64,000 nt of DNA from Nevskiales bacterium (GTDB taxonomy: Bacteria; Pseudomonadota; Gammaproteobacteria; Nevskiales; Nevskiaceae), in the NCBI GenBank assembly GCA_028698335.1, contig JAQVDP010000001.1:124001-188000 (forward strand). The letters run 5' to 3'. A program made the translations under genes and the position numbers. Within the stretch, counting starts at the first letter, position 1. Each line of letters begins with the position of its first letter. Shown here one piece after another: positions 9,797-25,177 of the stretch. The notes under the pieces were generated by a model. The model searched no databases, was not told where the DNA came from, and saw only the letters and a list, made by a program, of their open reading frames with translations.

Positions 9797-9859
9797 GATA
9801 TTCTGAAGGCGGGAGCGGCGAGTCAGGCCCGCCGCTCCGTCAGGAAAAAGGGGACGAAG

Positions 9860-10486
9860 ATGCCCAGGAACGCTGCGCGGCGGTTCAGCCGCGTCCTCGC
9901 AATCGTGCTGACCTGCACGTCCGGCGCCGCGGCGCATGCGGCCGGCCCGCCGACGGCCGACGCCGCACCGGCACTCGCATCCGAAGACGTCCGCCTGGTG
10001 CAGAGCCGCGCGCTGTCGATGCAGCTCGGCAAGGGCCTCAAGCAGGCGCTGATGGCGGCGATGGCCGAAGGCGGCCCGGTTGCGGCCATCGACGTCTGCC
10101 GCGTCGAGGCCCCGAAGATCGCCGCCGGCCTTAGCGACCGGAACGTCCGCGTCGGCCGCACCGCGCTGAAGGTCCGCAATCCGCTCAACAGTGCCGACTC
10201 CGAACAGCGGCGCGTCCTCGAATCCTTCGAGCAGCGCCTCGCCGACGGCGAGCCCGGCGCCCGGATCGAGCAGTTCGACCACACCTACCGCGGCGGCGCC
10301 CGCTACATGAAGGCGATCGTCACCCAGCCGATGTGCCTGGCCTGCCACGGCCCGTCGCTGGCGCCCGATATCGCCGCGGCGATCCGCGAGCGCTACCCGG
10401 ACGACGCCGCCACCGGCTTCGAGGCCGGCAGCCTGCGCGGCGCCTTCGTCGTCGACTGGTCCGGAGCCGAGCCGGGCACGCCATGA
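9860..10486 (+). CDS. Periplasmic c-type heme protein, DUF3365 family
   Basis: A 208-residue exported protein with a signal peptide (about residues 1-28, ending AHA) and one heme-c motif, CLACH (159-163). The conserved Cys in IDVCRVEAP (C80) is typical of DUF3365 (Tll0287-like) proteins, which are thought to be redox or gas sensors or small electron carriers. Its stop overlaps the cydP start (ATGA), so it is translationally coupled to the cytochrome bd genes; this points to a role in sensing or electron transfer linked to that oxidase. A GGGGA stretch precedes ATG 9860. Confidence 0.85.
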   Translation: MPRNAARRFSRVLAIVLTCTSGAAAHAAGPPTADAAPALASEDVRLVQSRALSMQLGKGLKQALMAAMAEGGPVAAIDVCRVEAPKIAAGLSDRNVRVGRTALKVRNPLNSADSEQRRVLESFEQRLADGEPGARIEQFDHTYRGGARYMKAIVTQPMCLACHGPSLAPDIAAAIRERYPDDAATGFEAGSLRGAFVVDWSGAEPGTP

Positions 10487-10689
10487 GCGCGCCCACGTCA
10501 CTGCCGCCGTCCGGCGAATGGCGGCCCAGGGTGCGCCGCCAGATCGCCTGGACCCTGCTGGTCAAGCTGCTGGCGCTGATCGCGCTGTGGGCGCTGTTCT
10601 TCTCGCCGGAGCACCGCGTCGAGGTGACCCCCGAGCGCGTGCAGGACCAGCTCATTCCCCCGTCTTCCCCTCCCGGAGTTGCTCCATGA
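10483..10689 (+). CDS. cydP: Cytochrome oxidase putative small subunit CydP
   Basis: A 68-residue protein with a cytoplasmic basic N-terminus (PRVRRQIAW) and one membrane helix (about residues 23-40, LLVKLLALIALWALFF), ending in FSPEHRVEV. CydP proteins are encoded directly ahead of cydA in many gammaproteobacteria and are regarded as accessory bd-oxidase components. It overlaps the upstream heme-protein gene and the downstream cydA gene by four bases each, so all three are coupled. The start was chosen from these overlaps and the family length. Confidence 0.8.
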   Translation: MSAPTSLPPSGEWRPRVRRQIAWTLLVKLLALIALWALFFSPEHRVEVTPERVQDQLIPPSSPPGVAP

Positions 10690-12260
10690 CCGATCTGACC
10701 GTCGTCGATCTGTCGCGGCTACAGTTCGCGCTGACCGCGTTGTATCACTTCCTGTTCGTTCCGCTGACGCTGGGCCTGTCGCTGCTGCTGGCGATCATGG
10801 AAAGCGTCTACGTGATGACCGGGCGCGAGATCTGGCGCCAGATGACCAAGTTCTGGGGCGTGCTGTTCGGCATCAACTTCGCGATGGGCGTCGCCACCGG
10901 CATCACGATGGAGTTCCAGTTCGGCACCAACTGGGCGTACTACTCGCACTACGTTGGCGACATCTTCGGCGCGCCGCTGGCGATCGAGGGCCTGATGGCC
11001 TTCTTCCTCGAATCGACCTTCGTCGGCCTGTTCTTCTTCGGCTGGGACCGGCTGTCCAAGGTCGGCCATCTGGTGGTGACCTGGCTGGTCGCGATCGGCT
11101 CGAACCTGTCGGCGCTGTGGATCCTGATCGCCAACGCCTGGATGCAGAACCCGGTCGGCTCCGAGTTCAACTTCGAGACGATGCGCATGGAGCTGACCTC
11201 GTTCGGCGAGGTCATCTTCAACCCGGTCGCGCAGTCCAAGTTCGTGCACACGGTTTCGGCCGGTTACGTGACCGGATCGGTGTTCGTGCTCGCGATCAGC
11301 GCCTGGTACCTGCTCAAGGGCCGCAACGTCGAGTTCGCCAAGCGCTCGATGACCGTCGCCGCATCCTTCGGCCTGGCCTCGGCGCTGTCGGTGGTGGTGC
11401 TGGGGGATGAATCCGGCTACACCGCAACCGAGCACCAGAAGATGAAGATCGCCGCGATCGAGGCGGCGTGGGAGACCGAGGAACCGCCGGCCGCGTTCAC
11501 CCTGTTCGGCATCCCCGACCTGGGCGACCGCAAGACCCACTACGAGGTGCAGATCCCCTACGCGCTGGGCCTGATCGCCACGCGTTCGATCGACACCGAG
11601 GTCCCCGGCATCCTCGATCTGGTCGAGCATGCCGAGACGCGCATCGAGTCCGGCATCCAGGCCCACGCCGCGCTGCAGGCGCTGCGCGCCAATCCCGACG
11701 ACGCCGCGGCCCGCGAGCGCTTCAAGGCGCACGAGGCCGACCTCGGCCACGGCCTGCTGCTGCTGCGCTACACCGACAATCCGGCCAACGCGACGCCGGA
11801 GCAGATCGAGCAGGCGGCATGGTCCACCGTGCCGAACGTGCCGGTCCTGTTCTGGGCCTTCCGCGTCATGGTCGCGCTGGGCTTCTACTTCATCGCCCTG
11901 TTCGGCGTGGCGTTCTGGCTGGCCTCGACCCACCGCCTGCAGAAGTACCGCTGGTTCCTGAAGGCGGCGCTGCTGACCCTGCCGCTGCCGTGGATCGCCG
12001 CGGAGCTGGGCTGGATCGTCGCCGAATACGGCCGCCAGCCGTGGGCGATCGAGGGCATCCTGCCGACCTTCCTCGGCGTCTCGACCCACTCGGTGACCAG
12101 CATCTCGCTGAGCCTGGGCGGCTTCGTACTGTTCTATTCGACGCTGGCGGTCGTCGATGTGTTCCTGATGGCGCGCTCGGTCCGGCGCGGCCCCGAGGGG
12201 CTCGGCTACTGGCCCGAATCCCGACCCGTCACGCCCGCCGCGCCTGCGGCGGCCCACTGA
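10686..12260 (+). CDS. cydA: Cytochrome bd ubiquinol oxidase subunit I
   Basis: A 524-residue inner-membrane subunit carrying hemes b558, b595 and d. The axial His of the N-terminal helix is H21 (ALYHFLF). The second His lies in SKFVHTVSAGYVTG, and the Met ligand region is FWAFRVMVALG. The length is close to E. coli CydA (522), consistent with the long Q-loop form. The enzyme oxidises quinol and reduces oxygen without proton pumping. Bd oxidases resist sulfide inhibition, which fits the position just after sqr. ATG 10686 overlaps the cydP stop codon. Confidence 0.95.
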   Translation: MTDLTVVDLSRLQFALTALYHFLFVPLTLGLSLLLAIMESVYVMTGREIWRQMTKFWGVLFGINFAMGVATGITMEFQFGTNWAYYSHYVGDIFGAPLAIEGLMAFFLESTFVGLFFFGWDRLSKVGHLVVTWLVAIGSNLSALWILIANAWMQNPVGSEFNFETMRMELTSFGEVIFNPVAQSKFVHTVSAGYVTGSVFVLAISAWYLLKGRNVEFAKRSMTVAASFGLASALSVVVLGDESGYTATEHQKMKIAAIEAAWETEEPPAAFTLFGIPDLGDRKTHYEVQIPYALGLIATRSIDTEVPGILDLVEHAETRIESGIQAHAALQALRANPDDAAARERFKAHEADLGHGLLLLRYTDNPANATPEQIEQAAWSTVPNVPVLFWAFRVMVALGFYFIALFGVAFWLASTHRLQKYRWFLKAALLTLPLPWIAAELGWIVAEYGRQPWAIEGILPTFLGVSTHSVTSISLSLGGFVLFYSTLAVVDVFLMARSVRRGPEGLGYWPESRPVTPAAPAAAH

Positions 12261-12271
12261 GGAGACCGGCC

Positions 12272-13405
12272 ATGTTCGACTATGAAGCTCTGCGGGTGAT
12301 CTGGTGGCTGCTGCTCGGCGTGCTGCTGATCGGCTTTGCCGTGATGGACGGTTTCGATCTGGGCGTCGGCGCCCTGTTCCGCTTCATCGGCAAGACCGAC
12401 GAGGAGCGCCGCGCGCTGCTCGAGACGATCGAGCCGGTCTGGGACGGCAACCAGGTCTGGTTCATCCTCGGCGGCGGCGCGATCTTCGCGGCGTGGCCGC
12501 TGCTCTACGCCGCGTCGTTCTCCGGCCTGTACTTCGCGATGCTGCTGATCCTGGTCGCGCTGATCCTGCGGCCGGTCGGCTTCGTGTTCCGCAACAAGCT
12601 CAGCGATCCGCGCTGGCGCAATCTCTGGGACTGGGCGCTGTTCGTCGGCGGCGCGGTGCCGTCGCTGCTGTTCGGCGTGGCCTTCGGCAACCTGTTCCTC
12701 GGCCTGCCGTTCCACATCGACGAAATGGCGCGCCCGGTCTACACCGGCAGCTTCTTCGGCCTGCTGCATCCGTTCGCGCTGGTCGCCGGGCTGGTCAGCC
12801 TGTCGATGCTGCTGATGCACGGCGGCAGCTACGCCGCGCTGAAGGCCGGTGAGCCGATGGCGCAGCGCGCCCGCGGCGCCGGCCAGCTCGCCGCGCTGCT
12901 GTTCATGGTGCTGTTCAGCGTCGCCGGGCTGTGGCTGGTGTTCGGCATCGACGGCCACCGCATCGTCGGCGAGCTGGACCCGAACGGCCCGTCGAACCCG
13001 CTGCGCAAGAGCGTCGAGGTCGTCAGCGGCGGCTGGATGCAGAACGCGTCGCAGTGGCCGCTGATCTGGCTGGCGCCGGTGGCGGCCTATGCCGCCGCGC
13101 TGCTGACGATCGTGCTGCTGCGCGCCAGGCGCGACGGCCTGGCCTTCATCACCAGCAGCCTCAGCGTGGCCTCGGTGATCCTGACCGCGGGCCTGAGCCT
13201 GTTCCCGTTCCTGATGCCGTCGTCCACCGAGCCCGGCCACGGCCTGACCGTGTGGGACGCATCGAGCAGCAAGCTGACGCTGGGCATCATGCTGGCGATG
13301 GCGCTGATCTTCGTGCCGATCATCCTCGCCTACACCGCCTGGGTGTTCCGCGTGCTGCGCGGCCGCGTGACCCTCGAACACGTGCGCAACAGCTCGCACT
13401 ACTGA
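12272..13405 (+). CDS. cydB: Cytochrome bd ubiquinol oxidase subunit II
   Basis: A 377-residue multi-helix membrane protein forming the second large subunit of the bd oxidase. The N-terminus MFDYEALRVIWWLLLGVLL and the segments GFDLGVG and EPVWDGNQVW are family hallmarks. The length matches E. coli CydB (379), so it is full length. AGGAG lies 8 bases before ATG 12272 and the gene follows cydA after 11 bases. Confidence 0.95.
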   Translation: MFDYEALRVIWWLLLGVLLIGFAVMDGFDLGVGALFRFIGKTDEERRALLETIEPVWDGNQVWFILGGGAIFAAWPLLYAASFSGLYFAMLLILVALILRPVGFVFRNKLSDPRWRNLWDWALFVGGAVPSLLFGVAFGNLFLGLPFHIDEMARPVYTGSFFGLLHPFALVAGLVSLSMLLMHGGSYAALKAGEPMAQRARGAGQLAALLFMVLFSVAGLWLVFGIDGHRIVGELDPNGPSNPLRKSVEVVSGGWMQNASQWPLIWLAPVAAYAAALLTIVLLRARRDGLAFITSSLSVASVILTAGLSLFPFLMPSSTEPGHGLTVWDASSSKLTLGIMLAMALIFVPIILAYTAWVFRVLRGRVTLEHVRNSSHY

Positions 13406-13423
13406 TCTGAAGGAGACGATGCC

Positions 13424-13570
13424 ATGTGGTACTTCTCGTGGATTCTCGGCCTCGGCCTCGCCGCCACCTTCGCGATCCTCAACGCGATGTGGCTGGAAGT
13501 GCAGGCCTGCCAGGACGAAAACGCGGCGCTGAGCGCCGAGAGCGGGGACGCGGGCTCCGACGCCCGCTGA
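13424..13570 (+). CDS. cydX: Cytochrome bd small subunit CydX
   Basis: A 48-residue single-helix protein beginning MWYFSWILGLGLAATFAI, the standard CydX start, with Trp/Glu after the helix (MWLEVQA). CydX stabilises the heme centres of the bd oxidase. It is longer than the E. coli protein (37) owing to an acidic Ser/Ala/Gly tail. A strong AAGGAGA site precedes ATG 13424, and the operon terminator follows 26 bases after the stop. Confidence 0.9.
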   Translation: MWYFSWILGLGLAATFAILNAMWLEVQACQDENAALSAESGDAGSDAR

Positions 13571-13595
13571 TCGCCGGCATTCCGCAGGCCCCAGG

Positions 13596-13631
13596 GGCCA
13601 CCCGCCGTTCGCGGCGGGCGGCCCTTTTTTT
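13596..13631 (+). terminator. Rho-independent terminator of the cyd operon
   Basis: Twelve-base arms (13596-13607 and 13612-13623) with a TTCG tetraloop and one mismatch, followed by seven T at 13625-13631. It ends the DUF3365-cydPABX transcript. Confidence 0.9.
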
Positions 13632-13675
13632 GTGGCCAGCGTCCGGCGCCCGGACCGGCGGAACAGGCCCGGGGT

Positions 13676-13707
13676 TTGATAGGGAAATTACATTAGGCTA
13701 TTCTAAA
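13676..13707 (+). promoter_or_regulatory. Peroxiredoxin-operon promoter with BigR-type operator
   Basis: A good sigma-70 promoter is visible: TTGATA at 13676-13681 and TATTCT at 13699-13704, 17-base spacer. The palindrome TTAG-GCTATT-CTAA at 13693-13706 covers the -10 element. It matches the sites at 8317 and 23298, so this operon is probably repressed by the same ArsR-family protein. The start codon is about 90 bases downstream. Confidence 0.65.
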
Positions 13708-13799
13708 TTAGTCATTGGACATATATAAGAGTTGTTGCGTATCGTTCTCATGTGGCCGACAGGACACACCCCCGACCCAACAGATGGAGTGACCCACAG

Positions 13800-14444
13800 A
13801 TGAACGATGCAACCGCCCCGCGCATGCCCGGCCTGAACCAGCCCGCCCCCGACTTCAAGGCGCCGACCACCCACGGCGAGAAGACGCTCGCCGACTACAA
13901 GGGCAAGTGGCTGGTGCTGTTCTCGCACCCGGCCGACTTCACGCCGGTGTGCACCACCGAATTCATGGCCTTCGCCCAGCGTCAGGACGAGTTCGCCAGG
14001 ATCAACTGCGAGCTGCTCGGCCTGTCGATCGACTCCACCCACTCGCACGTCGCGTGGACGCGCAACATCAAGGAGAAGTTCGGCGTCGAGATCGGCTTTC
14101 CGATCATCGCCGACCTGTCGATGAACGTCGCCACGGCCTACGGCATGATCCAGCCGGGCGCCTCGGACACCTCCGCGGTGCGCGCGACCTTCATCATCGA
14201 CGACAAGGGCATCCTCCGCGCGATGATCTACTATCCGATGTCCAACGGCCGTTCGATCGACGAAGTGCTGCGCCTCGTCACCGCGCTGCAGACCTCGGAC
14301 GGCAACGGCGTCGCCACGCCGGAAGGCTGGAAGCCCGGCGACAAGGTCATCGTGCCGCCGCCGAAGACGGTGGCCGAAGCCGAGCAGCGCATGAACGAAG
14401 GTTACGAATGCGTCGACTGGTACTTCTGCAAGAAGGCGCTGTAA
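13800..14444 (+). CDS. Peroxiredoxin, Prx6-like with archaeal-type C-terminal cysteines
   Basis: A 214-residue AhpC/TSA-family peroxidase. The peroxidatic cysteine is C51 in HPADFTPVCTTE. The C-terminus carries C204 and C210 in CVDWYFC, the same C-x5-C spacing as the resolving pair of Aeropyrum pernix thioredoxin peroxidase, so it probably cycles through a disulfide rather than acting as a pure 1-Cys enzyme. GGAG precedes ATG 13800 by about 10 bases; the frame is open further upstream but without a better start. First gene of a presumed operon with persulfide dioxygenase and rhodanese; it could reduce peroxides or persulfides formed during sulfide oxidation. Confidence 0.9.
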   Translation: MNDATAPRMPGLNQPAPDFKAPTTHGEKTLADYKGKWLVLFSHPADFTPVCTTEFMAFAQRQDEFARINCELLGLSIDSTHSHVAWTRNIKEKFGVEIGFPIIADLSMNVATAYGMIQPGASDTSAVRATFIIDDKGILRAMIYYPMSNGRSIDEVLRLVTALQTSDGNGVATPEGWKPGDKVIVPPPKTVAEAEQRMNEGYECVDWYFCKKAL

Positions 14445-14491
14445 TCACACCCCATAACCGCTGACGCCCGACGTCAGGCGCAAAGAGGGAT

Positions 14492-14521
14492 GCCCGGTGC
14501 GGTCGCACGGCCGCACCGGGC
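14492..14521 (+). other. Intergenic perfect hairpin between peroxiredoxin and dioxygenase genes
   Basis: Eleven-base perfect arms (14492-14502 and 14511-14521) with an 8-base loop. No T-run follows, so it is more likely an mRNA-processing or stability element than a terminator. Confidence 0.4.
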
Positions 14522-14557
14522 CATACCCCCACCCCCACCGACACAGGAGCCCGAACC

Positions 14558-15262
14558 ATGATGTTCCGACAATTGATCGACTCGACTTCGAGCACCTACA
14601 CCTACCTGCTGGCCGCGCGCCGCGGCGGCGAGGCGCTGATCATCGACCCGGTCAAGGAGAAGCTGCCGCAATACCTGCAGCTGATCGAACAGCTCGACGT
14701 GAAGCTGGTCAAGGCGATCGACACCCACACCCACGCCGACCACGTCACCGCGCTCGGCGACCTGCGCGACGAGACCGGCTGCGTGACGCTGATGGGCGAA
14801 TACACCAAGGCCGAATGCGTCTCCGCGCAGCTGCGCGAGGGCGAGATCGTCGACGTCGACGGCGTGAAGCTCAAGGCGCTGTACACGCCGGGCCACACCG
14901 ACGAATCGTTCAGCTTCGTGCTCAACCCGGACAAGCCGGAAGCCGTGTTCACCGGCGACGTGCTGCTGATCCGCGGCACCGGCCGCACCGACTTCCAGGC
15001 CGGCGATCCGGAAAAGTCCTGGGACTCGATCGTCAACAAGCTGTTCAGGCTGCCCGACGACACGCTGCTCTACCCCGGCCACGACTACAAGGGCTGGACC
15101 GTCTCCTCCATCGGCGAGGAGCGCCAGTACAACCCGCGCCTGGCCGGCAAGACCCGCGAGGAGTACGTGCAGATCATGCGGAACCTGAACCTGCCCAACC
15201 CCAAGCTGATGGACATCGCGGTACCGGCCAACCTCTCCTGCGGCCAGCCGCGCGCGGCCTGA
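14558..15262 (+). CDS. Persulfide dioxygenase, ETHE1-like (metallo-beta-lactamase fold)
   Basis: A 234-residue mononuclear-iron protein of the ETHE1 group. The metal motif is THTHADH (H57, H59, D61, H62), with later ligands in TPGHTDESF, FTGDVLLI and YPGHDY. ETHE1 enzymes oxidise glutathione persulfide to sulfite using oxygen. The gene lies between a peroxiredoxin and a rhodanese, downstream of a BigR-type operator, matching a role in clearing persulfide made by SQR. AGGAG precedes two adjacent ATGs (14558 and 14561). The C-terminal motif YNPRLAGKTREEY is typical of the family. Confidence 0.9.
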   Translation: MMFRQLIDSTSSTYTYLLAARRGGEALIIDPVKEKLPQYLQLIEQLDVKLVKAIDTHTHADHVTALGDLRDETGCVTLMGEYTKAECVSAQLREGEIVDVDGVKLKALYTPGHTDESFSFVLNPDKPEAVFTGDVLLIRGTGRTDFQAGDPEKSWDSIVNKLFRLPDDTLLYPGHDYKGWTVSSIGEERQYNPRLAGKTREEYVQIMRNLNLPNPKLMDIAVPANLSCGQPRAA

Positions 15263-15320
15263 ACCGCGCGCCCGGCCCGGCTTCGACTCCCTTCACCCCC
15301 ACCCCCACGCATCGACCCTC

Positions 15321-15710
15321 ATGAGCTCACCCATGCTGCAGTACGGCCTGATCGCCGTCGCCCTCGTCGCCCTGTACGTCTGGAAGAGCGGCGTCTTCAG
15401 CGACCGCCCCACCGCCGAGGCGGTCAAGCCCCTCTACGAACAAGGCACCCTGTTCCTCGACGTGCGCTCGGCCGGCGAATGGCGCTCCGGCCACCTGCAG
15501 CGCGCCAGGCACCTGCCGCTCGACCAGATCCAGGCCCAGGCCGCACGCGTGCTACCGGACCGCGACCAGAAAATCGTGATCTACTGCCAGTCCGGCTCGC
15601 GCTCGGTCAGCGCCGAGCGCATCCTCAAACAGCTCGGCTACAGCCAGGCCGTGGCGATGCGCGGCGGCATCGGCAACCTGGCCCGCGCCGGCTATCCCCT
15701 CACCCGCTGA
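15321..15710 (+). CDS. Membrane-anchored rhodanese-like sulfurtransferase
   Basis: A 129-residue protein with one N-terminal membrane helix (about residues 6-21) followed by a single rhodanese domain. The catalytic loop is CQSGSRS with C89, the charge pattern expected for sulfur transfer rather than phosphatase activity. It follows the persulfide dioxygenase by 58 bases and could move sulfane sulfur between glutathione, thiosulfate and the dioxygenase product sulfite. The helix topology decides the side of the membrane on which it works; Lys/Ser after the helix leave this open. Confidence 0.85.
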   Translation: MSSPMLQYGLIAVALVALYVWKSGVFSDRPTAEAVKPLYEQGTLFLDVRSAGEWRSGHLQRARHLPLDQIQAQAARVLPDRDQKIVIYCQSGSRSVSAERILKQLGYSQAVAMRGGIGNLARAGYPLTR

Positions 15711-15755
15711 TGGCGCCCACTGGCGCCACCCGCTGACTGCCCCGCCAAGATCCCG

Positions 15756-16364
15756 ATGAGCACCACCGACACCCCCGCCCTGGGCCGCGAATTCTGGGAA
15801 GGCCGCTACCAGTCCGGCCAGACCGGCTGGGACCGCGGCGACGCCAGCCCGGCGCTGCGCCAGTGGCTCGAACAACAGGCCCTGCCCCAGGGCCGCGCGC
15901 TCGTGCCCGGCTGCGGCCGCGGCCATGAAGTCCTGGCGCTGGCGCAGGCCGGCTACGCCGTCACCGCCGTCGACCTCGCACCCAGCGCGCTCGAAGCCGC
16001 CGGCGCCCAGCTCGACGCCCACGGCCTCACAGCCGAGCTGATCCAGGCCGACCTGCTCGAATGGATGCCGGCGCAGCCATTCGATCTGATCTACGAACAG
16101 ACCTGCCTGTGCGCCCTCAATCCCGGGCTGTGGCCGGCCTACACCGCGCAGCTGGCGCAATGGCTGCGCCCCGGCGGCGTCCTCGCGATCCTGTTCATGC
16201 AGACCGGTCGCGAAGGCGGCCCACCGTTCCACTGCCGCATGGCCCGCATGCACGAACTGTTCGATCCCGAACACTGGCAATGGCGCGACGACGCCGACCG
16301 CCTCACCGTCGAGCATCCCAACGGCGGCACCGAACTCGGCTACCGGCTGACCCGGCGCCCCTGA
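15756..16364 (+). CDS. SAM-dependent methyltransferase, TPMT-like family
   Basis: A 202-residue class I methyltransferase. The SAM-binding loop is VPGCGRGHEVLALAQ, followed by the acidic strand end VTAVDLAPSALE and the motif QADLLEW. The N-terminal FWEGRYQSGQTGWDRG is the thiopurine S-methyltransferase family signature. Some members methylate thiols or chalcogenides. Its place 45 bases after a rhodanese gene suggests a thiol or sulfide-derived substrate, but this is inference. No strong ribosome binding site precedes ATG 15756. Confidence 0.85.
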   Translation: MSTTDTPALGREFWEGRYQSGQTGWDRGDASPALRQWLEQQALPQGRALVPGCGRGHEVLALAQAGYAVTAVDLAPSALEAAGAQLDAHGLTAELIQADLLEWMPAQPFDLIYEQTCLCALNPGLWPAYTAQLAQWLRPGGVLAILFMQTGREGGPPFHCRMARMHELFDPEHWQWRDDADRLTVEHPNGGTELGYRLTRRP

Positions 16365-16541
16365 CCCCGGACCGAAGGAAAATCATGCTTATCAGACACC
16401 CCGCATCGCGGGGCGTCGTCGTTTCGAGATTGCGCGACAGCGATACCGGGCGTTAAATGCGGACATGAGCCTCCCTGGGAACGATTCGCATCCCCAGCAG
16501 GTCTGATGGGTCTGCCCGGCACTGGCCGCATCGGAACGCAC

Positions 16542-17042
16542 ATGGACCTGAAGCTGACCCATCTCAGCGAAGTCGACCCCGCCGACATCGTCGCGCTGCA
16601 CAACGACCCCAGGGTCATCCGTCATATGCCGCTGGCGCCCGGCCACTTCGACGCGACGCAGTGCGCGCAATGGGTTACCGACAAGGAACAGCAGTGGGCG
16701 CAGAACGGCTACGGCCCCTGGGCGATCCTGATCGACGGCGCCTTCGCCGGATGGGGCGGCCTGCAGCTGGAGGCCGGCGATGCCGATCTGGCGCTGGTGC
16801 TGTCGCCCGGATACTGGGGCCACGGTCAGGCGATCTGCCGCGAGATCATCCGGATCGCCTTCGACGACATGGGCCTGGAATCAGTGACGGCATTGCTGCC
16901 GCCGAGCCGCGTCCGCACCAGCGGCATGCTGCGCCTGGGCTTCGAGCCCGACGGCGAGCTGCAGATTGCGGACAAACGTTTCCTGCGCTACCGGCTCAGA
17001 GCTCCGAACGATTCGATGCAAAGCCGCCATCCCACCGGATAG
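16542..17042 (+). CDS. GNAT-family N-acetyltransferase
   Basis: A 166-residue acetyltransferase-like protein. It has HNDPRVIRHMP near the N-terminus, a substrate strand (GPWAILIDGAFAGWGGLQL), and the helix region SPGYWGHGQAICREIIRIA replacing the usual RxxGxG loop, as in RimJ-like members. It probably acetylates a small amine or protein N-terminus; the substrate is unknown. ATG 16542 is chosen because homology begins there; an in-frame ATG at 16506 is possible. The gene converges with the leftward octaheme operon. Confidence 0.75.
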   Translation: MDLKLTHLSEVDPADIVALHNDPRVIRHMPLAPGHFDATQCAQWVTDKEQQWAQNGYGPWAILIDGAFAGWGGLQLEAGDADLALVLSPGYWGHGQAICREIIRIAFDDMGLESVTALLPPSRVRTSGMLRLGFEPDGELQIADKRFLRYRLRAPNDSMQSRHPTG

Positions 17043-17078
17043 GCGCCGGCGCGCCGGCATCGCCGTTGCGGCTTGCGC

Positions 17079-17732
17079 TCAACGGATGTGGCGGGGCTCG
17101 TCGCGCTCCAGATAGGCCTCTTCTTCCGGCGTCAGGTCCACCGTATCGAACCCGGTGATCATCGGCTTGACGTGCTCAGCAAAGGAATGCCCCGTCGTCA
17201 GCAGATAGACGTGGATGATGATGAACGCGAGGATTGCGAACGCCACCAACGTATGCGCCAGCGCGACCCCTTCGAGCATTGTGGAGGCACCGGGAATCGC
17301 GGACCAGAGCGAGTAGAACAGGTAGGCCAGCCCCGTCGCCCAGATCAGCGGGAACAGCATCAGCTTGAGTGCAAGATAGCTCAGCGCCTGCAGCGGATTG
17401 TGCTTGCGCCAGTAGGCCTTGCGGTAGGGATGGCGTTCTCCGTGGAAGATCCCCCATGCATAGAAGCGGGCGACCTGCCACAGGCCATTGGCCGTGGGCA
17501 CGTAGTGCCGCCAGTTGCCGGTGGTCAGGTGCCAGAAGATCGCAAAAATCCACAGCACGATCAACGCGAGCGCGCCGGCGGTATGCAGCACCACGGCGTT
17601 GTAAAAATCGAGCGCCGGATTGAATCCGTGCACCGCGAAACCCGAAAACAGCAGGGCCACGATCAGCAGCATCTGTGTCCAGTGCCAGAATCGCTCGAAG
17701 CGGGTATACAGCATCACCTGACGAACGCTCAT
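17079..17732 (-). CDS. Cytochrome b membrane subunit partnering the octaheme cytochrome
   Basis: A 217-residue integral membrane protein with four to five helices and the histidines expected for two b hemes (RFERFWHW, VVLHTAG, VALAHTLVAF, FIIIHVYLL). It belongs to the cytochrome b/b6, Ni-hydrogenase cytb-like group. Its start overlaps the octaheme gene stop (ATGA at 17729-17732), so the two are coupled; it should carry electrons from quinol to the periplasmic octaheme protein. Last gene of the FNR-controlled leftward operon. Confidence 0.85.
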   Translation of the reverse strand: MSVRQVMLYTRFERFWHWTQMLLIVALLFSGFAVHGFNPALDFYNAVVLHTAGALALIVLWIFAIFWHLTTGNWRHYVPTANGLWQVARFYAWGIFHGERHPYRKAYWRKHNPLQALSYLALKLMLFPLIWATGLAYLFYSLWSAIPGASTMLEGVALAHTLVAFAILAFIIIHVYLLTTGHSFAEHVKPMITGFDTVDLTPEEEAYLERDEPRHIR

Positions 17733-19405
17733 GCCTGCTTCCTCCGGCGGCGCGAAATCGCCCTGAGTGCGCCGTGGCCCGCCACACCACCGATCGAGCC
17801 GACCAGCATCAGCAGGCCGAGTCCGTCGACCCAGCGGTTACGGTCGCGGCCGGGCATGTAGAACCCGTTCAGTTCGGCGAGGCGGCCTTGCGGCCGATGG
17901 CACTCGGCGCAGTCGAGTGCCTGCTCAGCCGGCGCCACCATGTGCGTGATCGGCCAGTACGAGCGGGTTTCGATGAATCCATATTGGCCGCTGTACTCGA
18001 TGCCATTGTTCGTCATTCCCGTCTCGATCGCGTTGGCGAAATCGTAGTTGCCCCAGAACGCGTCGTTGTCGTCGCCCCACAGGTGCATGTAGACCAGCGT
18101 GTTCCGACCCTTGTCGTAGGGCTGGATCGTGTGCATGCGCTTGAACGGCCAGATCCTGGAATTCGGGTCGTCACGCGAGCCCTTGAAGTGGTTGATCTCG
18201 ATCGGCGCCTTGGACGGATCGAACTGGGTCTCGATCGTGGTGTAGACCATCTGTCCGTCGAACCATGCGTAGGACGGGGGCAGGTCCTCGGCGTACTTGA
18301 AGTCTCCCTTGATCGACTTGTACGTCGCACGGTGCTCGCCGTTGCCCTGCGTATAGTTTTTCTCCTTGTATCCTTCGCCATCGCGGGTCTTGCCCGCCGT
18401 GCGCCAATCCCAATCGACCATCGTGGCGACTCCGCCCCGGGCCATGCTGGGAATATGGCAGGTCTGGCAGGCAACCCGATCGACGTGATTGTTCAGCTTG
18501 ATGCCGGTCAGGCGATCCTTAGGATGCGGTGCGATGCCATGGCAGGACTCGCAGGTCGCGACATCGCGCCGCTGTCCGGGCAGGCCGGTACCCTCGGTGT
18601 CGTGGGCGACGACGTTGTAGCGGCTGCCGGCCCACTGATGCTGATGGCTGACATGACACTCGGTACAGCTGAAGTTCAGGCCGTCCTCGTCCATGTGCAC
18701 GTCGAGCGCCCGGCTCGCATGCGTGAGCGAGGAGTCCAGATCTCCGTGCTTGACGCCGTCACCGCCACCACCGAAGAAATGACAGCTTCCGCAGTTCTCG
18801 CGACCGGGCAGCCCGACGCTCTGCGCGACGCCGGCCCAGTCGATCGGATCACGACCCTCGAACATGATCGTGCACGCCTCGTTGCCTTCCGAGTTCGGGG
18901 TCTTGTAGTAGGTCCCAGTCCGATCGTGGCAGACGAGGCAATCGATATTGGCCTGATCACCGAAGTCGAAACTATTGTCCTTCCAGCCGTAACCGGCATG
19001 GCATTGCGCGCACATGCCTTCGTTGCCCCGGGCATTGGTGCAGTAGTTGTTGATCAGCGTTTTCTTGCCAAGCGTCTGCCCCGTTTCCGGATGAACGTAT
19101 TCCCATGTCCAGTGGATCGAGTGCATGAACTGCTTGCCGGCTTCGGTGTGGCAGCTCAGGCAGGCCTGCGTCACTTCCGGGCCGCTGCTGAACGGCCCGC
19201 GCAGAATCTCGTACTTGCTGTGATCGGCGGTGGAGTCACTGTCGGTGCGAGCGCTCGGCGCAACCCCCGGCTCGAGGCGGAAGTTCATGTCGACATCGTC
19301 CGCGGCCGTCCCGGCCGCAGGGGACGCGTATCCCGCAGTCCCCCAGAACAAAGCCGCCGCCACCGCTACCGCAAGCCATGACCCTTGCCGTCGCCATGGC
19401 CGCAT
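17729..19405 (-). CDS. Octaheme c-type cytochrome, tetrathionate-reductase (Otr) family
   Basis: A 558-residue periplasmic multiheme protein with a signal peptide (after MRPWRRQ, ending GYA). Eight CxxCH motifs are visible: CLSCH, CAQCH, CLVCH, CGSCH, CTECH, CESCH, CQTCH and CAECH. The insert NNYCTNARGNEGMCAQCH is typical of the Otr family, whose Shewanella member reduces tetrathionate, nitrite and hydroxylamine in vitro. A C-terminal hydrophobic segment plus basic tail (RRRRKQA) suggests a membrane anchor. ATG 19405 is preferred because the signal peptide begins there and it leaves a 10-base gap to the upstream gene; 19453 is an in-frame alternative. The true substrate here is unknown. Confidence 0.9.
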   Translation of the reverse strand: MRPWRRQGSWLAVAVAAALFWGTAGYASPAAGTAADDVDMNFRLEPGVAPSARTDSDSTADHSKYEILRGPFSSGPEVTQACLSCHTEAGKQFMHSIHWTWEYVHPETGQTLGKKTLINNYCTNARGNEGMCAQCHAGYGWKDNSFDFGDQANIDCLVCHDRTGTYYKTPNSEGNEACTIMFEGRDPIDWAGVAQSVGLPGRENCGSCHFFGGGGDGVKHGDLDSSLTHASRALDVHMDEDGLNFSCTECHVSHQHQWAGSRYNVVAHDTEGTGLPGQRRDVATCESCHGIAPHPKDRLTGIKLNNHVDRVACQTCHIPSMARGGVATMVDWDWRTAGKTRDGEGYKEKNYTQGNGEHRATYKSIKGDFKYAEDLPPSYAWFDGQMVYTTIETQFDPSKAPIEINHFKGSRDDPNSRIWPFKRMHTIQPYDKGRNTLVYMHLWGDDNDAFWGNYDFANAIETGMTNNGIEYSGQYGFIETRSYWPITHMVAPAEQALDCAECHRPQGRLAELNGFYMPGRDRNRWVDGLGLLMLVGSIGGVAGHGALRAISRRRRKQA

Positions 19406-19415
19406 CGCGATGGGC

Positions 19416-19793
19416 TCAATGCCCACAGTTACACCCGGACCGCGCATCAGCACCCCGGTCTGCTTGGGCAGGGGGCGCCAAGGTACCGTCGAGCCAGCCT
19501 GCGACGGCCGCGTCCGGATCGGCGCAGGCGGTGGTCACGGCCCGGATGCCGCGGCCGGCGAGCTTGCGGCGCACGCCGTCGCCCATGCTGCCGCTGATGA
19601 GCACGTCGACACCGTCCAGCGGATGCGCGACGGTGGGCGCGGTCTCATGCATGGACTGCTCTTTGGGTAGTTCCAGCATTGTCTTGCCGGACACCTTGCG
19701 ATCAGCGTCGACATCGTAGATCCAGAAGCGGCGACAGCGGCCGGCATGGTCGGTAACTTCGCGGCGGTTCTGGCTGGTGACGGCAATCTTCAT
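19416..19793 (-). CDS. NifX/NifB-type iron-molybdenum cofactor-binding domain protein
   Basis: A 125-residue protein beginning MKIAVTSQNRREVTDHAGRC, a dinitrogenase FeMo-cofactor biosynthesis-type fold, with motifs HPLDGVDVLISGSMGDG and a C-terminal SGCNCGH that can bind metal. No nitrogenase genes are present. Stand-alone members may carry metal or sulfur clusters or act in redox regulation. It is the first gene of an operon with the octaheme cytochrome and cytochrome b, so assembly or regulation of that system is a fair guess. CGGAG lies 8 bases before ATG 19793. Confidence 0.8.
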   Translation of the reverse strand: MKIAVTSQNRREVTDHAGRCRRFWIYDVDADRKVSGKTMLELPKEQSMHETAPTVAHPLDGVDVLISGSMGDGVRRKLAGRGIRAVTTACADPDAAVAGWLDGTLAPPAQADRGADARSGCNCGH

Positions 19794-19819
19794 GACGGAA
19801 CTCCGGATGACAGGCACAC

Positions 19820-19837
19820 CTTTTCCATGTGGAAAAG
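19820..19837. promoter_or_regulatory. Palindrome CTTTTCCA-TG-TGGAAAAG, operator candidate
   Basis: Perfect 8-base arms around a 2-base centre, 27-44 bases ahead of the NifX-like start codon. If the FNR site at 19881-19894 acts at -41.5, this palindrome falls at about +10 to +27, a place typical of repressor sites. One arm, CTTTTCCA, recurs at 19870-19877, exactly 50 bases away (about five helical turns). The binding protein is unknown. Confidence 0.5.
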
Positions 19838-19852
19838 CACTGAAACATTCAG

Positions 19853-19894
19853 AGCCTAGACGCTGCCCTCTTTTCCAGCATTGATCGTCATCAA
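19853..19894 (-). promoter_or_regulatory. FNR/ANR-dependent promoter of the octaheme operon
   Basis: TTGAT-CGTC-ATCAA at 19881-19894 is a perfect FNR/ANR consensus. Reading leftward, a -10-like TAGGCT lies at 19858-19853. This puts the transcription start near 19846 and the FNR site centre at about -41.5, the standard class II activator position. It implies that NifX-like, octaheme cytochrome and cytochrome b genes are induced without oxygen. Confidence 0.75.
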
Positions 19895-19948
19895 TTCCGG
19901 AAGCGATACCCCGAGCCGAACCCGCCGGGCGGACTGACCCGTTCGGCT

Positions 19949-20695
19949 TCAGCTGTGGTGCAGACGTCGAACCACGGCGATGGTGGCTATTCCGGCCAGC
20001 ATCAGCAGCACCTGTCGCAGCGATGCAGCCGGCCGCGTCGTGCGGTGCAGGTGAGGGATCAGATCGGCGACTGCGACGTAGATGAAGCTCGCGGCCGATA
20101 GCGCCAGCATGTACGGCACCGCCTCGCGCGTCCGCTCCAGCCAGAGATAGCCCATCAACGCGCCCGGCAGGGTCGCGGCGGACGACAGGCCGTTGAGCAG
20201 CAGGGCCCTCATGCGGCTGTAGCCGCTCTCGAGCAGGATTGCGAAGTCGCCGATCTCCTGCGGCAGTTCATGGGCAATGACCGCAATTGCGGTCGCCACT
20301 CCCAGCGGCACGGATACCAGAAACGCGGCGGCGATGACGACACCGTCGACGAAATTGTGGAACGCGTCGCCGATCAGGATGACCGGCGCCGGACGTCCGT
20401 GGACCTGGCAGTGTTCCTCGTGGCAATGGCGCCACAATGCCCATTTCTCCAACAGGAAGAACAGCACCAGCCCGGCGAGCACCGCCGGCATCAGCGCCGA
20501 TGCCGGCGCCTGGGCCAGCCCTGCGGGCAACATGCCGAGAAATGCGGCACCCAGCAACGTGCCGGCGGAATAGCTCACGAGTTCCGGCACCAGCCTGCGG
20601 CGCAGGCCGGGCGGCGCGATCAGGATCAGAGCGGCGCCGACGATGGCGCCGATGCTGCCCAGAATCGCGAATCCGGCGACCCAGAGCATCAGCAT
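19949..20695 (-). CDS. ZIP-family divalent metal transporter
   Basis: A 248-residue membrane protein with about eight helices. The two metal-binding helices carry HNFVDG and HELPQEIGDF, the ZIP signatures. A His/Cys/Glu-rich cytoplasmic loop (HCHEEHCQVHG) could bind zinc or a similar metal. It should take up Zn, Fe or Mn. It lies 48 bases downstream of the SQR-like flavoprotein gene in the same direction, so the two may be co-transcribed. Confidence 0.9.
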   Translation of the reverse strand: MLMLWVAGFAILGSIGAIVGAALILIAPPGLRRRLVPELVSYSAGTLLGAAFLGMLPAGLAQAPASALMPAVLAGLVLFFLLEKWALWRHCHEEHCQVHGRPAPVILIGDAFHNFVDGVVIAAAFLVSVPLGVATAIAVIAHELPQEIGDFAILLESGYSRMRALLLNGLSSAATLPGALMGYLWLERTREAVPYMLALSAASFIYVAVADLIPHLHRTTRPAASLRQVLLMLAGIATIAVVRRLHHS

Positions 20696-20743
20696 GGCCG
20701 GCCCTGCCGACAGACGGGATATTTGCTGCGGCGACGCATCGGA

Positions 20744-21886
20744 CTAGGCCCGATACGGCCGCAGATACCACCATTCAAACAGGCGTTTGAGCCAGTGCAG
20801 GATGCGCAGGCGCGGGATGACCCAGGCGCGCTTCGAATCGCGATAGACCAGAATGCCACCGTCCAGCGTGTCGACGATGCAGACCAGTTCGTTGCGAAAT
20901 GTCGCCTGTGGTGTCTTGCCGTCGAGCATATCCAGGATGTTGACGGCCGCGGCCTTGGCCTGCAGGTCGGCCATGTGCGCCTGCTTGGGCGCCCAGTCCG
21001 GCCCCGGAAAACTCCCCGAATCACCTGCGACGAACACGGCCTCGGCCCCCTGCACCCGGCAGTGGGCATCCGCCTGAAAGAAACCGCCCGGCGACAACGG
21101 CAAGCCGCTGGCTTCGGCCCACGCCGGCCCCGTCATGCCCGGCATGAACAGGGTCAGATCCGCCTCGACCCGGCCGTTGGCCGTCTCGACACCATCGTCG
21201 GTGAACGCAGTGATCGGATGTCCCAGATGCAGTTCGATGCCCCGCCGCTTCATCTCGCCAACCAGCCCGACGACTGCCTTGGGACCGAGGCGCTTGCCCG
21301 GCTCGGCCGCGGCACTGACGAAATGCAGCTTGAACCGATCGCGCACACCGCGTCGGCGCAGCCATGTATCGATGCCGAAGCTCAGCTCGAACATCGGCCC
21401 GCCGCGCATCGCCGCCGGCTCCTTGGGATTGGCGCCGAAGCCGAAGGCGATGCTGCCGCCGTCGAGCCTCTCCAGACGTTCACGAATCCGCTGCGCCGCG
21501 CCGACGCCCTCGCACACCGTCATCACCTTGTCGGCACCGGGCAAGCCTTTGAGAAAGCGTCCACCGCTTGCGATCAGCAACGCATCGTAGGCGACATCAC
21601 CCTGATCGGTTTTCAGGGTCCGTGCAGCAGCGTCCAGCCCTACAACGCTCGCGAGCTTGAGTTGTACGTTGTGCCGCTGCAGAAAATTCCACAGGGGCAC
21701 GACCAGGTCGCGCCCCTCCCGCAGGCCGGTCGGCACCCAGATCAGACTCGGCAAATAGACGAAGTCCTGACGTGGGGCGACCATCGTGATGCGATGCGCG
21801 GCCCCTTGTTTGCGCAGGACACGGATGGCAGTCAATGCCGCAAACCCGGCGCCGACTACCACGATATCGCGAGGATTCGAGACCAC
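20744..21886 (-). CDS. SQR-like FAD oxidoreductase with incomplete redox cysteines
   Basis: A 380-residue flavoprotein of the SQR/FCSD/NDH-2 superfamily: GAGFAALTA FAD loop, second motif DALLIASGGRF, and the PKQAHMADLQAKAAA helix near the C-terminal FAD site. Aligned by eye with the SQR at 8483, it keeps equivalents of C128 (C125, VMTVCEGVG) and C356 (ELVCIVDT) but has no counterpart of C160. It may act on another sulfur compound or be an NADH or quinone reductase. The start is set at GTG 21886, where AAGGAG lies 6 bases upstream; an upstream ATG (21952) would add 22 unrelated residues. Confidence 0.75.
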   Translation of the reverse strand: MVSNPRDIVVVGAGFAALTAIRVLRKQGAAHRITMVAPRQDFVYLPSLIWVPTGLREGRDLVVPLWNFLQRHNVQLKLASVVGLDAAARTLKTDQGDVAYDALLIASGGRFLKGLPGADKVMTVCEGVGAAQRIRERLERLDGGSIAFGFGANPKEPAAMRGGPMFELSFGIDTWLRRRGVRDRFKLHFVSAAAEPGKRLGPKAVVGLVGEMKRRGIELHLGHPITAFTDDGVETANGRVEADLTLFMPGMTGPAWAEASGLPLSPGGFFQADAHCRVQGAEAVFVAGDSGSFPGPDWAPKQAHMADLQAKAAAVNILDMLDGKTPQATFRNELVCIVDTLDGGILVYRDSKRAWVIPRLRILHWLKRLFEWWYLRPYRA

Positions 21887-22102
21887 ATCCCACTCCTTGC
21901 ATTCGTCAATGAGCCGTTTCGCAGCTGACCACTTGCGAAGGGGATTGCACAATACGGAATATCGCTATGGCCGCAGATATGATTGTCGGCGCCGGACGGT
22001 TCTGTCAGCACTGACGCACATCAACCGGATCTGCGGGCAAGCCGAGATTCCCCTTCGTGCGGACACCATCCGGCGCAACGCCCAGCGGGCGCTGTCGGAC
22101 GC

Positions 22103-22360
22103 TCAGGGCAGGTGCACCCAGCGCGCGACAAGGCGGCGCACCTGCGGCACCAGGAAGAAGATCAGCGGCGCGGCGATGACGTAGGCGACGGCGAAGGCGT
22201 GTCGCCACAGCGCGAGGAAGTCTTCGGTGAAGCCGACGTTCACGAAGGTGATGACGCCGGTCATGATGAACACCATCAGCGCCGCCATCAGCCCCGAGAA
22301 CACCAGGTGGAAGTAGCGCGCCGGCAGCTTGCGGCGAATGGGCAGCGTCACCGCGCTCAT
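22103..22360 (-). CDS. DUF2798 small membrane protein
   Basis: An 85-residue protein with two membrane helices separated by a short loop, and a basic N-terminus (RRKLPARYFHLVFSGLMAALM) matching DUF2798. Its start overlaps the TSUP gene stop (ATGA at 22357-22360), so it is translated with the exporter. The function is unknown; it might form a small partner subunit of the exporter. Confidence 0.8.
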   Translation of the reverse strand: MSAVTLPIRRKLPARYFHLVFSGLMAALMVFIMTGVITFVNVGFTEDFLALWRHAFAVAYVIAAPLIFFLVPQVRRLVARWVHLP

Positions 22361-23217
22361 GCGCCGGCTCCGAAGGTTTCCCACAGCACCTGGCCGAGCA
22401 TCAGCACGGCGATGATGCCCATGATCATCGCGAAGCCCTGTTGCAGGCGCGCGCCGGCCACGCGCGCGGCGAAGCGCCGGCCGGCGAGCATGCCGACGAC
22501 CGCGCCGATCACGAACGGCAGCGCCACCACCAGCGGCAGTTCGCGGCCGTGCAGCAGCGCGATGACGACGGTGCCGGCGCTGGTCAGGCTGATCGTCATC
22601 AGCGAGGTGGCGACGGCGGCATGCATGCTCATGTCGCTGATCGCGCGCAGCGCCGGCACGATGACGAAGCCGCCGCCGACGCCGAGCATGCCGGACAGGA
22701 AGCCGGTCATCGCGCCGGTGCCGCTGACCGCGGCGATGCAGTTGCGCGTCCACGAGATGCGGCCGGTGTCCTCGCGGATGCGGCAGACCGCGCCGGCGTC
22801 GCCGGCCGGGGTGCCGCCGACGTTGGCGCGCACCACCGAGGCCTCGTCCGGGTTCTGCCGCGCGCGGCCGTACATGCGCAGCGCGACGATCACCAGCACC
22901 GCGGCGAACAAGCCGCTGAGCCACTGCACCGGGAGCCGGTCCGCCGCCATCAGTCCCAGCGGGGCGAACAGCAGGCCGATGCCCGACATCAGCATCGCGG
23001 CGCGGTAGCGCACGACGGCGACGTCCCAGGCGGCGACGGTGCCGATGCCGGCCGACATCGCCACCGCGATCAGCGCCACCGGCGCGGCCTGCGGCAGCGT
23101 CCAGCCCAGACCCCACATCAGCATCGGCACCGCGAGCACCGATCCGCCGGCGCCGGTGAGCCCGAGCACCAGCCCGACGATGCCGCCAAGTACCACTGCG
23201 ATTGCGGATTCGACCAC
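22357..23217 (-). CDS. TSUP-family sulfur-compound exporter (TauE/SafE)
   Basis: A membrane protein of about 286 residues with two four-helix halves, each with a Gly-rich motif (GLVLGLTGAGGS and GFLSGMLGVGGGF). TSUP proteins move sulfite, thiosulfate or other sulfur anions; in BigR-type operons they are thought to export sulfite made by persulfide dioxygenase. It is divergent from such a dioxygenase gene with a BigR-type operator between. GTG 23217 is preferred (GGAG 8 bases upstream, start at the usual family N-terminus); ATG 23259 is an in-frame alternative without a ribosome binding site. Confidence 0.85.
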   Translation of the reverse strand: MVESAIAVVLGGIVGLVLGLTGAGGSVLAVPMLMWGLGWTLPQAAPVALIAVAMSAGIGTVAAWDVAVVRYRAAMLMSGIGLLFAPLGLMAADRLPVQWLSGLFAAVLVIVALRMYGRARQNPDEASVVRANVGGTPAGDAGAVCRIREDTGRISWTRNCIAAVSGTGAMTGFLSGMLGVGGGFVIVPALRAISDMSMHAAVATSLMTISLTSAGTVVIALLHGRELPLVVALPFVIGAVVGMLAGRRFAARVAGARLQQGFAMIMGIIAVLMLGQVLWETFGAGA

Positions 23218-23296
23218 CTTCACCACTCCGAACAGCCGGAACCCGGCGAAGCCGGCCATTGACGCATGTCATTGGCAAACTGCCGGGAATTGTTTA

Positions 23297-23338
23297 TTTA
23301 GACCTATCTAATATACCGCCCGCAGTATAGGGACACAA
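23297..23338. promoter_or_regulatory. TSUP promoter with BigR-type operator, divergent region
   Basis: Leftward promoter: TTGTGT (23338-23333) and TATATT (23315-23310) with a 17-base spacer. The palindrome TTAG-ACCTAT-CTAA at 23298-23311 overlaps its -10/+1 region. It matches the sites at 8317 and 13693. A rightward promoter for the dioxygenase gene is less clear. One repressor could control both directions. Confidence 0.65.
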
Positions 23339-23385
23339 TAACAGCGGGCGTGATCGAGCATTCCATCCTGTCGGAGGATTCACTG

Positions 23386-24264
23386 ATGAAACCCGAGGTT
23401 ACCGCGTTCTACGACCCCGCCACCTACACCGTCAGCTATGTGGTGCGCGACCCCAGCGGCGACGCCTGCGCCATCGTCGACCCGGTGCTGGACTACGATC
23501 CGAAATCCGGCCGTACCGGCACCGCGTCCGCCGACGCGCTGATCGAATTCGTCGAGACCAAGGGCCTGCGCGTGCAGTGGATCCTGGAGACCCACGCCCA
23601 TGCCGACCATCTCACCGGCGCGCATTATCTGAAGGAACGCGTCGGCGGCACCGTCGCGATCGGCGAGCACATCCGCACGGTGCAGAAGACCTTCGCCCCG
23701 CTGTTCGACATGGGCGAGGACTTTGCCACCGACGGCTCGCAGTTCGACCGCCTGTTCGCCGACAACGACAGCTTCGACATCGGCGCGCTCAAGTGCAGCG
23801 TGATGCACACGCCCGGCCACACGCCGGCCTGCATCACCTATGTGATCGGCGACGCCGCGTTCGTCGGCGACACGCTGTTCATGCCGGACTACGGCACGGC
23901 GCGCGCGGATTTCCCGGGCGGCGACGCGCAGACCCTGTACCGCTCGATCCGGCGCATTCTCGATCTGCCGCCCGAGACGCGACTGTTCATGTGCCACGAC
24001 TACCAGCCGGGCGGGCGCGAAGTGCTGTGGGAGACCAGCGTCGCCGCCGAACGTGCCGGCAACGTGATGATCCGCGACGGCATCGACGAGGCCGCCTACA
24101 CCGCCGCCCGCAAGGAGCGCGACGCCAGACTCGCGGCACCGGTGCTGATCCTGCCGTCGCTGCAGGTCAACATCCGCGCCGGCGCGCTGCCGGAGCCGGC
24201 GGCCAATGGCATTCGCTATCTGAAGATCCCGCTCGACCAGCTCGGCGGACGCCGCAAGACCTGA
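23386..24264 (+). CDS. Persulfide dioxygenase-like MBL-fold enzyme (Blh/ETHE1 type)
   Basis: A 292-residue metallo-beta-lactamase-fold protein. The metal motif is THAHADH (H70, H72, D74, H75), with later ligands in HTPGHTPA, VGDTLF and CHDYQPGG. It is longer than the ETHE1-like enzyme at 14558 and resembles the C-terminal part of Blh proteins in BigR operons. It should oxidise a low-molecular-weight persulfide to sulfite. GGAGG lies before ATG 23386; an upstream in-frame ATG (23350) lacks a site. Two dioxygenases in one regulon suggest different thiol carriers. Confidence 0.88.
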   Translation: MKPEVTAFYDPATYTVSYVVRDPSGDACAIVDPVLDYDPKSGRTGTASADALIEFVETKGLRVQWILETHAHADHLTGAHYLKERVGGTVAIGEHIRTVQKTFAPLFDMGEDFATDGSQFDRLFADNDSFDIGALKCSVMHTPGHTPACITYVIGDAAFVGDTLFMPDYGTARADFPGGDAQTLYRSIRRILDLPPETRLFMCHDYQPGGREVLWETSVAAERAGNVMIRDGIDEAAYTAARKERDARLAAPVLILPSLQVNIRAGALPEPAANGIRYLKIPLDQLGGRRKT

Positions 24265-24334
24265 GGCTGGCGGCCACGCGACGAATGCGGCACCCTCGCG
24301 CCCTGGATTCCACGCAGATCAGGAGACCCACGCG

Positions 24335-25177
24335 ATGAGCAGCAGCCCGGACTCGCTACTGGCCACGGCCGAGATTGTCGACGTCGTCGACTTCCCGCGG
24401 GAAGTCCTCGAACGCTCGCAGCAGATCCCGGTGCTGGTCGACTTCTGGGCGCCGTGGTGCGGACCGTGCAAGGCGCTGACGCCGGCGATCGAGGCCGCGG
24501 TGCGGCGCTTCGCCGGCCGCGTCGTGCTGGCCAAGGTCAACAGCGACGAACAGCCGGAGTGGGCGCAGCGCTGCGGCGTGCGCGGCATCCCCAACGTGAA
24601 GCTGTTCATCGACGGCAGCATCGTCGACGAATTCACCGGCGCGCTGCCGCAATCGGCGATCGAACAGTGGCTGGAGCGGGCGCTGCCGGCGTCGATGGGC
24701 GACGTGCTCGAGGACATCGACCGTCTGATCGCAGAAGGCCACAGCGCGGACGCCGCCGCACTGCTGATGCGCGCCGCCGCCGATCCGCAGGCACCGCCGG
24801 GCGTCTGGCTGCGCCTGGCACGGCTCAAGCTGTTCGAGGACCCGCAGGCGGCGCGCCAGATGCTGCAGCATATTCCGCCGGACGCCCGCGAGGCCGACGA
24901 CGCGGCCGCGATGCTGCGCGTGCTGAGCTTCGCCGCGGAGGCCGGATCGACCGAGCTGGCGGCGTCGCCGGCGCGGGCGCCGTACCTGGAAGCCGCGCGG
25001 CTGCTCGCCGCCGGGCAGATCGAGCCGGCGATGGACCAGCTGATCGAGTCGGTGCGCCTGGACCGCAAGTTCGAGGACGACGCCGCGCGCAAGCGTCTGG
25101 TCGACCTGTTCGACTGGCTCGGCTCCGCCGACGAGCGCACCCGCGACTACCGCATGCGCCTGTACGACGTGCTCTGA
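24335..25177 (+). CDS. cnoX: CnoX/YbbN-type thioredoxin-TPR co-chaperone
   Basis: A 280-residue cytoplasmic protein: thioredoxin domain (residues 15-115) with an intact WCGPC centre (C42, C45), then an Ala-rich TPR-like helical domain (about 120-280). The E. coli homologue CnoX (YbbN) has SxxC and works as a holdase that protects oxidised proteins and hands them to DnaK and GroEL. The full CGPC here suggests thiol-reductase activity too, perhaps on persulfides given the neighbours. It lies 70 bases after the dioxygenase gene. Confidence 0.88.
   Translation: MSSSPDSLLATAEIVDVVDFPREVLERSQQIPVLVDFWAPWCGPCKALTPAIEAAVRRFAGRVVLAKVNSDEQPEWAQRCGVRGIPNVKLFIDGSIVDEFTGALPQSAIEQWLERALPASMGDVLEDIDRLIAEGHSADAAALLMRAAADPQAPPGVWLRLARLKLFEDPQAARQMLQHIPPDAREADDAAAMLRVLSFAAEAGSTELAASPARAPYLEAARLLAAGQIEPAMDQLIESVRLDRKFEDDAARKRLVDLFDWLGSADERTRDYRMRLYDVL

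Follow-up and report, generated by a model that had tools for sequence, protein, structure and literature searches.

The octaheme tetrathionate reductase (OTR) of Shewanella oneidensis (PDB 1SP3) carries eight hemes at CxxCH motifs, and its partner is the soluble small tetraheme cytochrome (STC) (PMC4484225). A differently built relative is the Beggiatoaceae nitrite/tetrathionate reductase BOGUAY_2386 (PMC6449678). For this OTR-family octaheme protein, membrane helices are predicted at both the N- and the C-terminus, and downstream of its gene lies one for a thiosulfate-reductase-type cytochrome b. Here, an operon is described in which an OTR gene and a cytochrome b gene stand behind an FNR-type box and a NifX-like leader gene, whose product shares the PF02579 domain with NifX, NafY and the C-terminal domain of NifB. 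It lies within 64,000 nucleotides (nt) of DNA from a Nevskiales bacterium (assembly GCA_028698335.1, contig JAQVDP010000001.1, positions 124,001 to 188,000), a stretch referred to in full as the window. We consider it somewhat better than an even bet, with a probability of roughly 0.55, that the operon provides FNR-controlled respiration from quinol to tetrathionate (or nitrite), together with a cytoplasmic, cluster-binding NifX-like accessory protein. Its features are as follows:

19894-19881, minus strand: FNR-type box TTGATGACGATCAA, an exact pattern match
19853..19858, minus strand: possible -10 element TAGGCT of a class II (-41.5) promoter, proposed from reading the sequence
19416..19793, minus strand: NifX-like protein, 125 amino acids, PF02579, Cys-rich at its end (SGCNCGH), H16 occupying the cluster-ligand position (Pfam, family alignment, PDB profile match)
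17729..19405, minus strand: OTR octaheme c-type cytochrome, 558 amino acids from the preferred ATG, with a signal peptide, eight CxxCH motifs and a C-terminal membrane tail (TIGR04315, 1SP3)
17079..17732, minus strand: cytochrome b561-type membrane subunit, 217 amino acids, four predicted helices (PF01292, 79 bits; hydropathy)

The second gene product matches TIGR04315 at 617 bits (cut-off 375) over all 440 positions of the profile (1-440) and PDB 1SP3 with an E-value of 2.7e-106. It has eight CxxCH motifs and retains the active-site Asn, Cys and Lys of the Shewanella enzyme (N135, C138 and K235), which are invariant in 104 of 104 aligned OTRs. By these matches it is a member of the octaheme tetrathionate reductase family, with a predicted activity on tetrathionate (or nitrite/hydroxylamine). 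Shewanella-like OTRs at the loci compared here lack a membrane tail and an adjacent cytochrome b gene, whereas the window OTR, with its tail and adjacent PF01292 gene, is the common membrane-anchored form. Both features are present at 91 of 101 usable OTR loci of other genomes and neither at 6; another 4 are mixed, of which at least L166 and L167 resemble frame or open reading frame (ORF) artefacts. Since tail and cytochrome b neighbour go together, two forms of OTR can be distinguished. The tail-less OTRs at L238, L240, L246 and L251 are likewise without a neighbouring cytochrome b gene. The pairing of OTR with cytochrome b is thus of a known, widespread kind. Apart from cytochrome b, the OTR loci show no convincing conserved neighbour, most of the apparent clusters being antisense ORFs or lineage synteny. 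The Beggiatoaceae locus differs in that further thiosulfate/polysulfide reductase genes follow, and neither a NifX-like leader nor an FNR box is reported in the available part of its description (PMC6449678).

In a quick FastTree analysis the window OTR groups with those of Thiodiazotropha and lucinid symbionts (support 0.64 for the 9-member group and 0.87 for the next). Among 61 relatives this genome alone has an OTR above the cut-off, a distribution that fits lateral gain or patchy loss.

A preliminary description of this stretch, made from the sequence alone, had proposed a perfect FNR box followed by genes for a NifX-type protein, an eight-heme Otr-like cytochrome and a quinol-linked cytochrome b; box and genes are all in place on the minus strand, and the matches given above bear out an OTR-family octaheme cytochrome and a membrane cytochrome b partner. 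The genes are closely packed in the order NifX-like, OTR, cytochrome b561. The NifX-like gene starts at ATG 19793, with GGAG about 7 nt 5' of the ATG. The OTR ORF as listed begins at GTG 19453 and runs into the NifX-like gene; its likely start is ATG 19405, which would open a Sec-type signal, MRPWRRQGSWLAVAVAAALFWG. The OTR stop overlaps the cytochrome b gene by 4 nt. Between the box and the NifX-like gene, the leader also contains a perfect inverted repeat (CTTTTCC-ACAT-GGAAAAG, 19820-19837), possibly a second operator or a hairpin.

No second exact copy of the box occurs in the window. The whole genome (4,298,632 bases) contains six, against none for a reversed-pattern control and about 0.2 expected genome-wide from base composition (a hand estimate), and all six lie between called genes or shortly before a probable gene start. 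The operon has its box centred about 94 nt upstream of the NifX-like start codon, probably an activating position; placing it at -41.5 would put +1 at 19846 and make TAGGCT, which keeps T-A---T, the -10 element. The other five boxes are at G000:C11:101770, C22:57575, C23:269866, C40:35511 and C40:132527; one each stands before a fatty-acid-desaturase-like, a molbindin-like (near nifB) and a DksA/TraR-like gene (named by eye). An Fnr homologue at G000:C40:48700 carries CKPNCAMCPAGSRC, with cysteines spaced C-x3-C-x2-C-x5-C as in E. coli FNR, plus a further Cys (VCVIP). FNR-type control appears to recur at other loci. If no more than one mismatch is allowed, a box lies in the 350 nt before OTR at 11 of 103 other loci, compared with 1.6 expected from shuffles. 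For the 300 nt before the NifX-like gene the count is 6 of 40 loci, compared with 0.5 expected, although three of these six are close relatives.

The NifX-like protein scores 49.6 bits against PF02579 (cut-off 26.3). Its identification as a true nitrogenase NifX was considered and rejected: the protein reaches only 22 bits against the NifX equivalog TIGR02663 (cut-off 112) and is encoded outside the nif cluster. The best NCBIfam match is to the MrpORP/orange protein (NF041136), at 46 bits with a cut-off of 450 and confined to the C-terminal third of the profile; unlike MrpORP, the NifX-like protein has no ATPase domain. A profile of its family finds the NafY core (1P90), NifX (9IAN) and other PF02579 structures with E-values of 1e-4 to 2e-3. 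In these comparisons H16, within HAG, aligns with the histidine of the His-Phe-Gly (HFG) sequence of NafY 1P90, and by the listed ranges (2-90 on 21-110) it would correspond to position 35 of NifX; NifX H35 has been named as a cluster ligand (PMC13128457). Conservation of H16 extends to 40 of the 41 family members, many of which also have Cys- or His-rich C-terminal stretches, and the members share a signature of their own, TSQN[FR]RT[IV]TxHAGKxRRF. By these criteria of sequence, the protein belongs to a separate PF02579 subfamily that keeps the cluster-ligand histidine. Searches of the open-access literature found no paper on this subfamily, and nothing relevant on DUF6858 or on a combination of NifX with either OTR or cytochrome bd.

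The absence of nitrogenase nearby, which had made a NifX-type protein seem unexpected, holds for the window but not for the genome. NifH, NifD, NifK and NifB all score above their cut-offs on contig C22, which also has two PF02579 genes scoring better than the NifX-like gene on C44; judged by its gene content, the host genome is diazotrophic. Moreover, it is common for PF02579 proteins to be encoded away from nitrogenase clusters, as in 5 of 14 control genomes. With a nitrogenase in the organism as well, the find is less surprising than was claimed.

The generality of the triplet was examined by searches with the single sequence, the family profile and Pfam over 47 named loci (flanks of about 6 kilobases (kb)) and class and phylum samples (flanks of 1.5 kb). 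OTR and cytochrome b are adjacent almost everywhere, but at no other OTR locus examined was a NifX-like gene found directly beside OTR. The triplet is therefore not a general unit; having a NifX-like gene as leader, downstream of an FNR-type box, is a local variant. Looser linkage occurs in G345 (NifX-CydD-CydC-OTR-cytochrome b on a single strand), in Terasakiella pusilla (NifX-CydABDC on the other strand, about 8 kb away from OTR) and in a Thiosymbion metagenome-assembled genome, where the two genes are about 12 kb apart. Of the 47 genomes that were reached through their OTR sequence, 36 contain a member of the family, in most cases without linkage to OTR. With E-value cuts set by eye, the class sample of 369 genomes (cut about 1e-12) has OTR in 29, NifX-like proteins in 26 and both in 11 (Fisher p 3.5e-7, or 1.9e-6 without the own genome), and the phylum sample of 398 (cut about 1e-8) has 45, 17 and 9 (p 1.7e-5, or 8e-5 without the own genome). 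Collapsing the class sample by hand to families leaves a p of 2.5e-4. Since the presence of the two is correlated, the triplet is not clearly a product of chance either. The idea that the NifX-like protein is an oddity of this strain was also rejected, given its relatives in 36 of 47 OTR genomes and strong matches in 26 of 369 class genomes.

G004, a congeneric relative, has no OTR. It retains a block of peroxiredoxin, MBL, rhodanese and methyltransferase genes followed by NifX-like, DUF2798 and TauE genes (L201:7744-9460, G004:C20), without an intervening OTR, cytochrome b, ZIP or SQR-like gene. Its NifX-like copy starts with ATC, carries Gln in place of H16 and Arg in place of G18, and goes out of frame ahead of the Cys-rich end; the box at the homologous site, ctaatgagggtcaa, has three mismatches. 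In this one case, copy and box look like they are decaying where OTR is absent. Any such decay would be recent, because the overall dN/dS of the copy (0.17) is not raised. An exact FNR-type box lies upstream of TauE in G004; the window has no such box.

The operon may thus be read as follows. At low oxygen, an FNR-type regulator would activate transcription through the box at 19881-19894. Cytochrome b561 would take electrons from membrane quinol and pass them to OTR, which its C-terminal helix would anchor on the periplasmic side of the membrane. There the active-site heme, with lysine as distal ligand, would reduce a small oxyanion; conversion of tetrathionate to thiosulfate appears most likely, while nitrite or hydroxylamine might be side substrates or alternatives to it. 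The NifX-like protein, made from the same transcript and predicted to stay in the cytoplasm, would bind an Fe-S-type cluster or a metal through H16, perhaps also through its Cys-rich end, and would serve a low-oxygen sulfur/respiratory programme, not the assembly of OTR. The more specific proposal, that the subfamily is a cytoplasmic Fe-S (or Mo/Fe-S) cluster-binding carrier or sensor that takes part, alongside OTR and cytochrome bd respiration, in responding to sulfide at low oxygen, is an unlikely one.

Several observations weigh against this reading. The Fnr homologue scores 159 bits, with its family cut-off at 228, and ETVCR takes the place of the E..SR that is typical of the FNR recognition helix. 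A correlation and a single decayed-looking relative suggest that the NifX-like protein is coupled to OTR, but the shared ecology of sulfur bacteria could also produce such a correlation. In addition, nitrite and hydroxylamine are further substrates of Shewanella OTR (PMC4484225), so that the substrate of an OTR cannot be read from its sequence.

Under the same enzyme and control, the physiological substrate might accordingly be nitrite or hydroxylamine, in ammonification or detoxification. The Beggiatoa enzyme, of the same build, does reduce nitrite, but it is much faster on tetrathionate, at up to 93 umol/min/mg compared with 1.3 for nitrite (PMC6449678). The surroundings of the operon are also sulfur-related, and no nitrogen-oxide gene was seen among the annotated proteins of the window, the rest of the genome not having been searched for nitrite-related genes. 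Tetrathionate is thus the likeliest substrate as judged from these comparisons and nitrite the main alternative, with the nitrogen-oxide role as a whole possible but rather doubtful. A wider departure is that the NifX-like gene belongs to an FNR/cytochrome bd/sulfide programme of its own, behind which OTR and cytochrome b have landed, sharing its promoter with no functional coupling. The lack of adjacency at the other OTR loci examined, the usual company of the NifX-like gene (Crp/Fnr, SLAC1, DUF6858, CydAB and SQR-like genes) and the patchiness of OTR among relatives all fit such hitchhiking, whereas the correlation in two genome samples, the loose linkage in G345 and Terasakiella and the decayed-looking gene and box of OTR-less G004 speak for a connection. 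We regard hitchhiking as a serious contender that falls a little short of an even chance.

Two further roles concern the NifX-like protein itself. As a cytoplasmic sensor, its cluster would report oxygen, sulfide or iron-sulfur status and tune the expression of OTR or cytochrome bd. Its place among Crp/Fnr regulators and oxygen- or sulfide-related genes and the retained ligand histidine agree with this, but profile and Pfam scans of the 125 residues found no DNA-binding or signalling domain, and the proposal seems improbable. The preliminary description had suggested a maturation or sensing part. A maturation factor for the octaheme reductase would fit the shared operon, and the histidine of the nitrogenase cofactor carriers is kept. 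However, the cofactors of OTR are c-type hemes, attached in the periplasm, and OTR is not known to carry a cluster; because, in addition, the NifX-like protein lacks a signal peptide for export and its gene is missing from most OTR operons, maturation is a very remote prospect.

Around the operon, a sulfur/redox island extends over 7455-25177. It encodes a BLH-phosphatase-type protein, an ArsR regulator, two SQR-like proteins, CydA, peroxiredoxin, two MBL proteins, rhodanese, DUF2798, TauE and thioredoxin. Elsewhere, the recurrent neighbours of the NifX-like family are a Crp/Fnr regulator, SLAC1, DUF6858, CydAB and SQR-like FAD proteins. A module of Crp/Fnr regulator, SLAC1, DUF6858 and NifX-like genes, often beside cydAB, recurs in genomes of sulfur oxidisers (L153:4122-6860; similarly L129, L130 and L135).

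OTR with cytochrome b is a widespread respiratory module; its substrate in vivo is not settled, and the present copy, preceded by an FNR-type box, offers a testable case. The NifX-like subfamily is little studied; it keeps the cofactor-ligand histidine of nitrogenase proteins amid cytochrome bd, SQR-like and anion-exporter neighbourhoods, and its possible ligand and its client can be tested directly. If the NifX-like protein is indeed a carrier or sensor, the fold of a nitrogenase cofactor carrier would have been reused outside nitrogen fixation, linking sulfur status to respiration.
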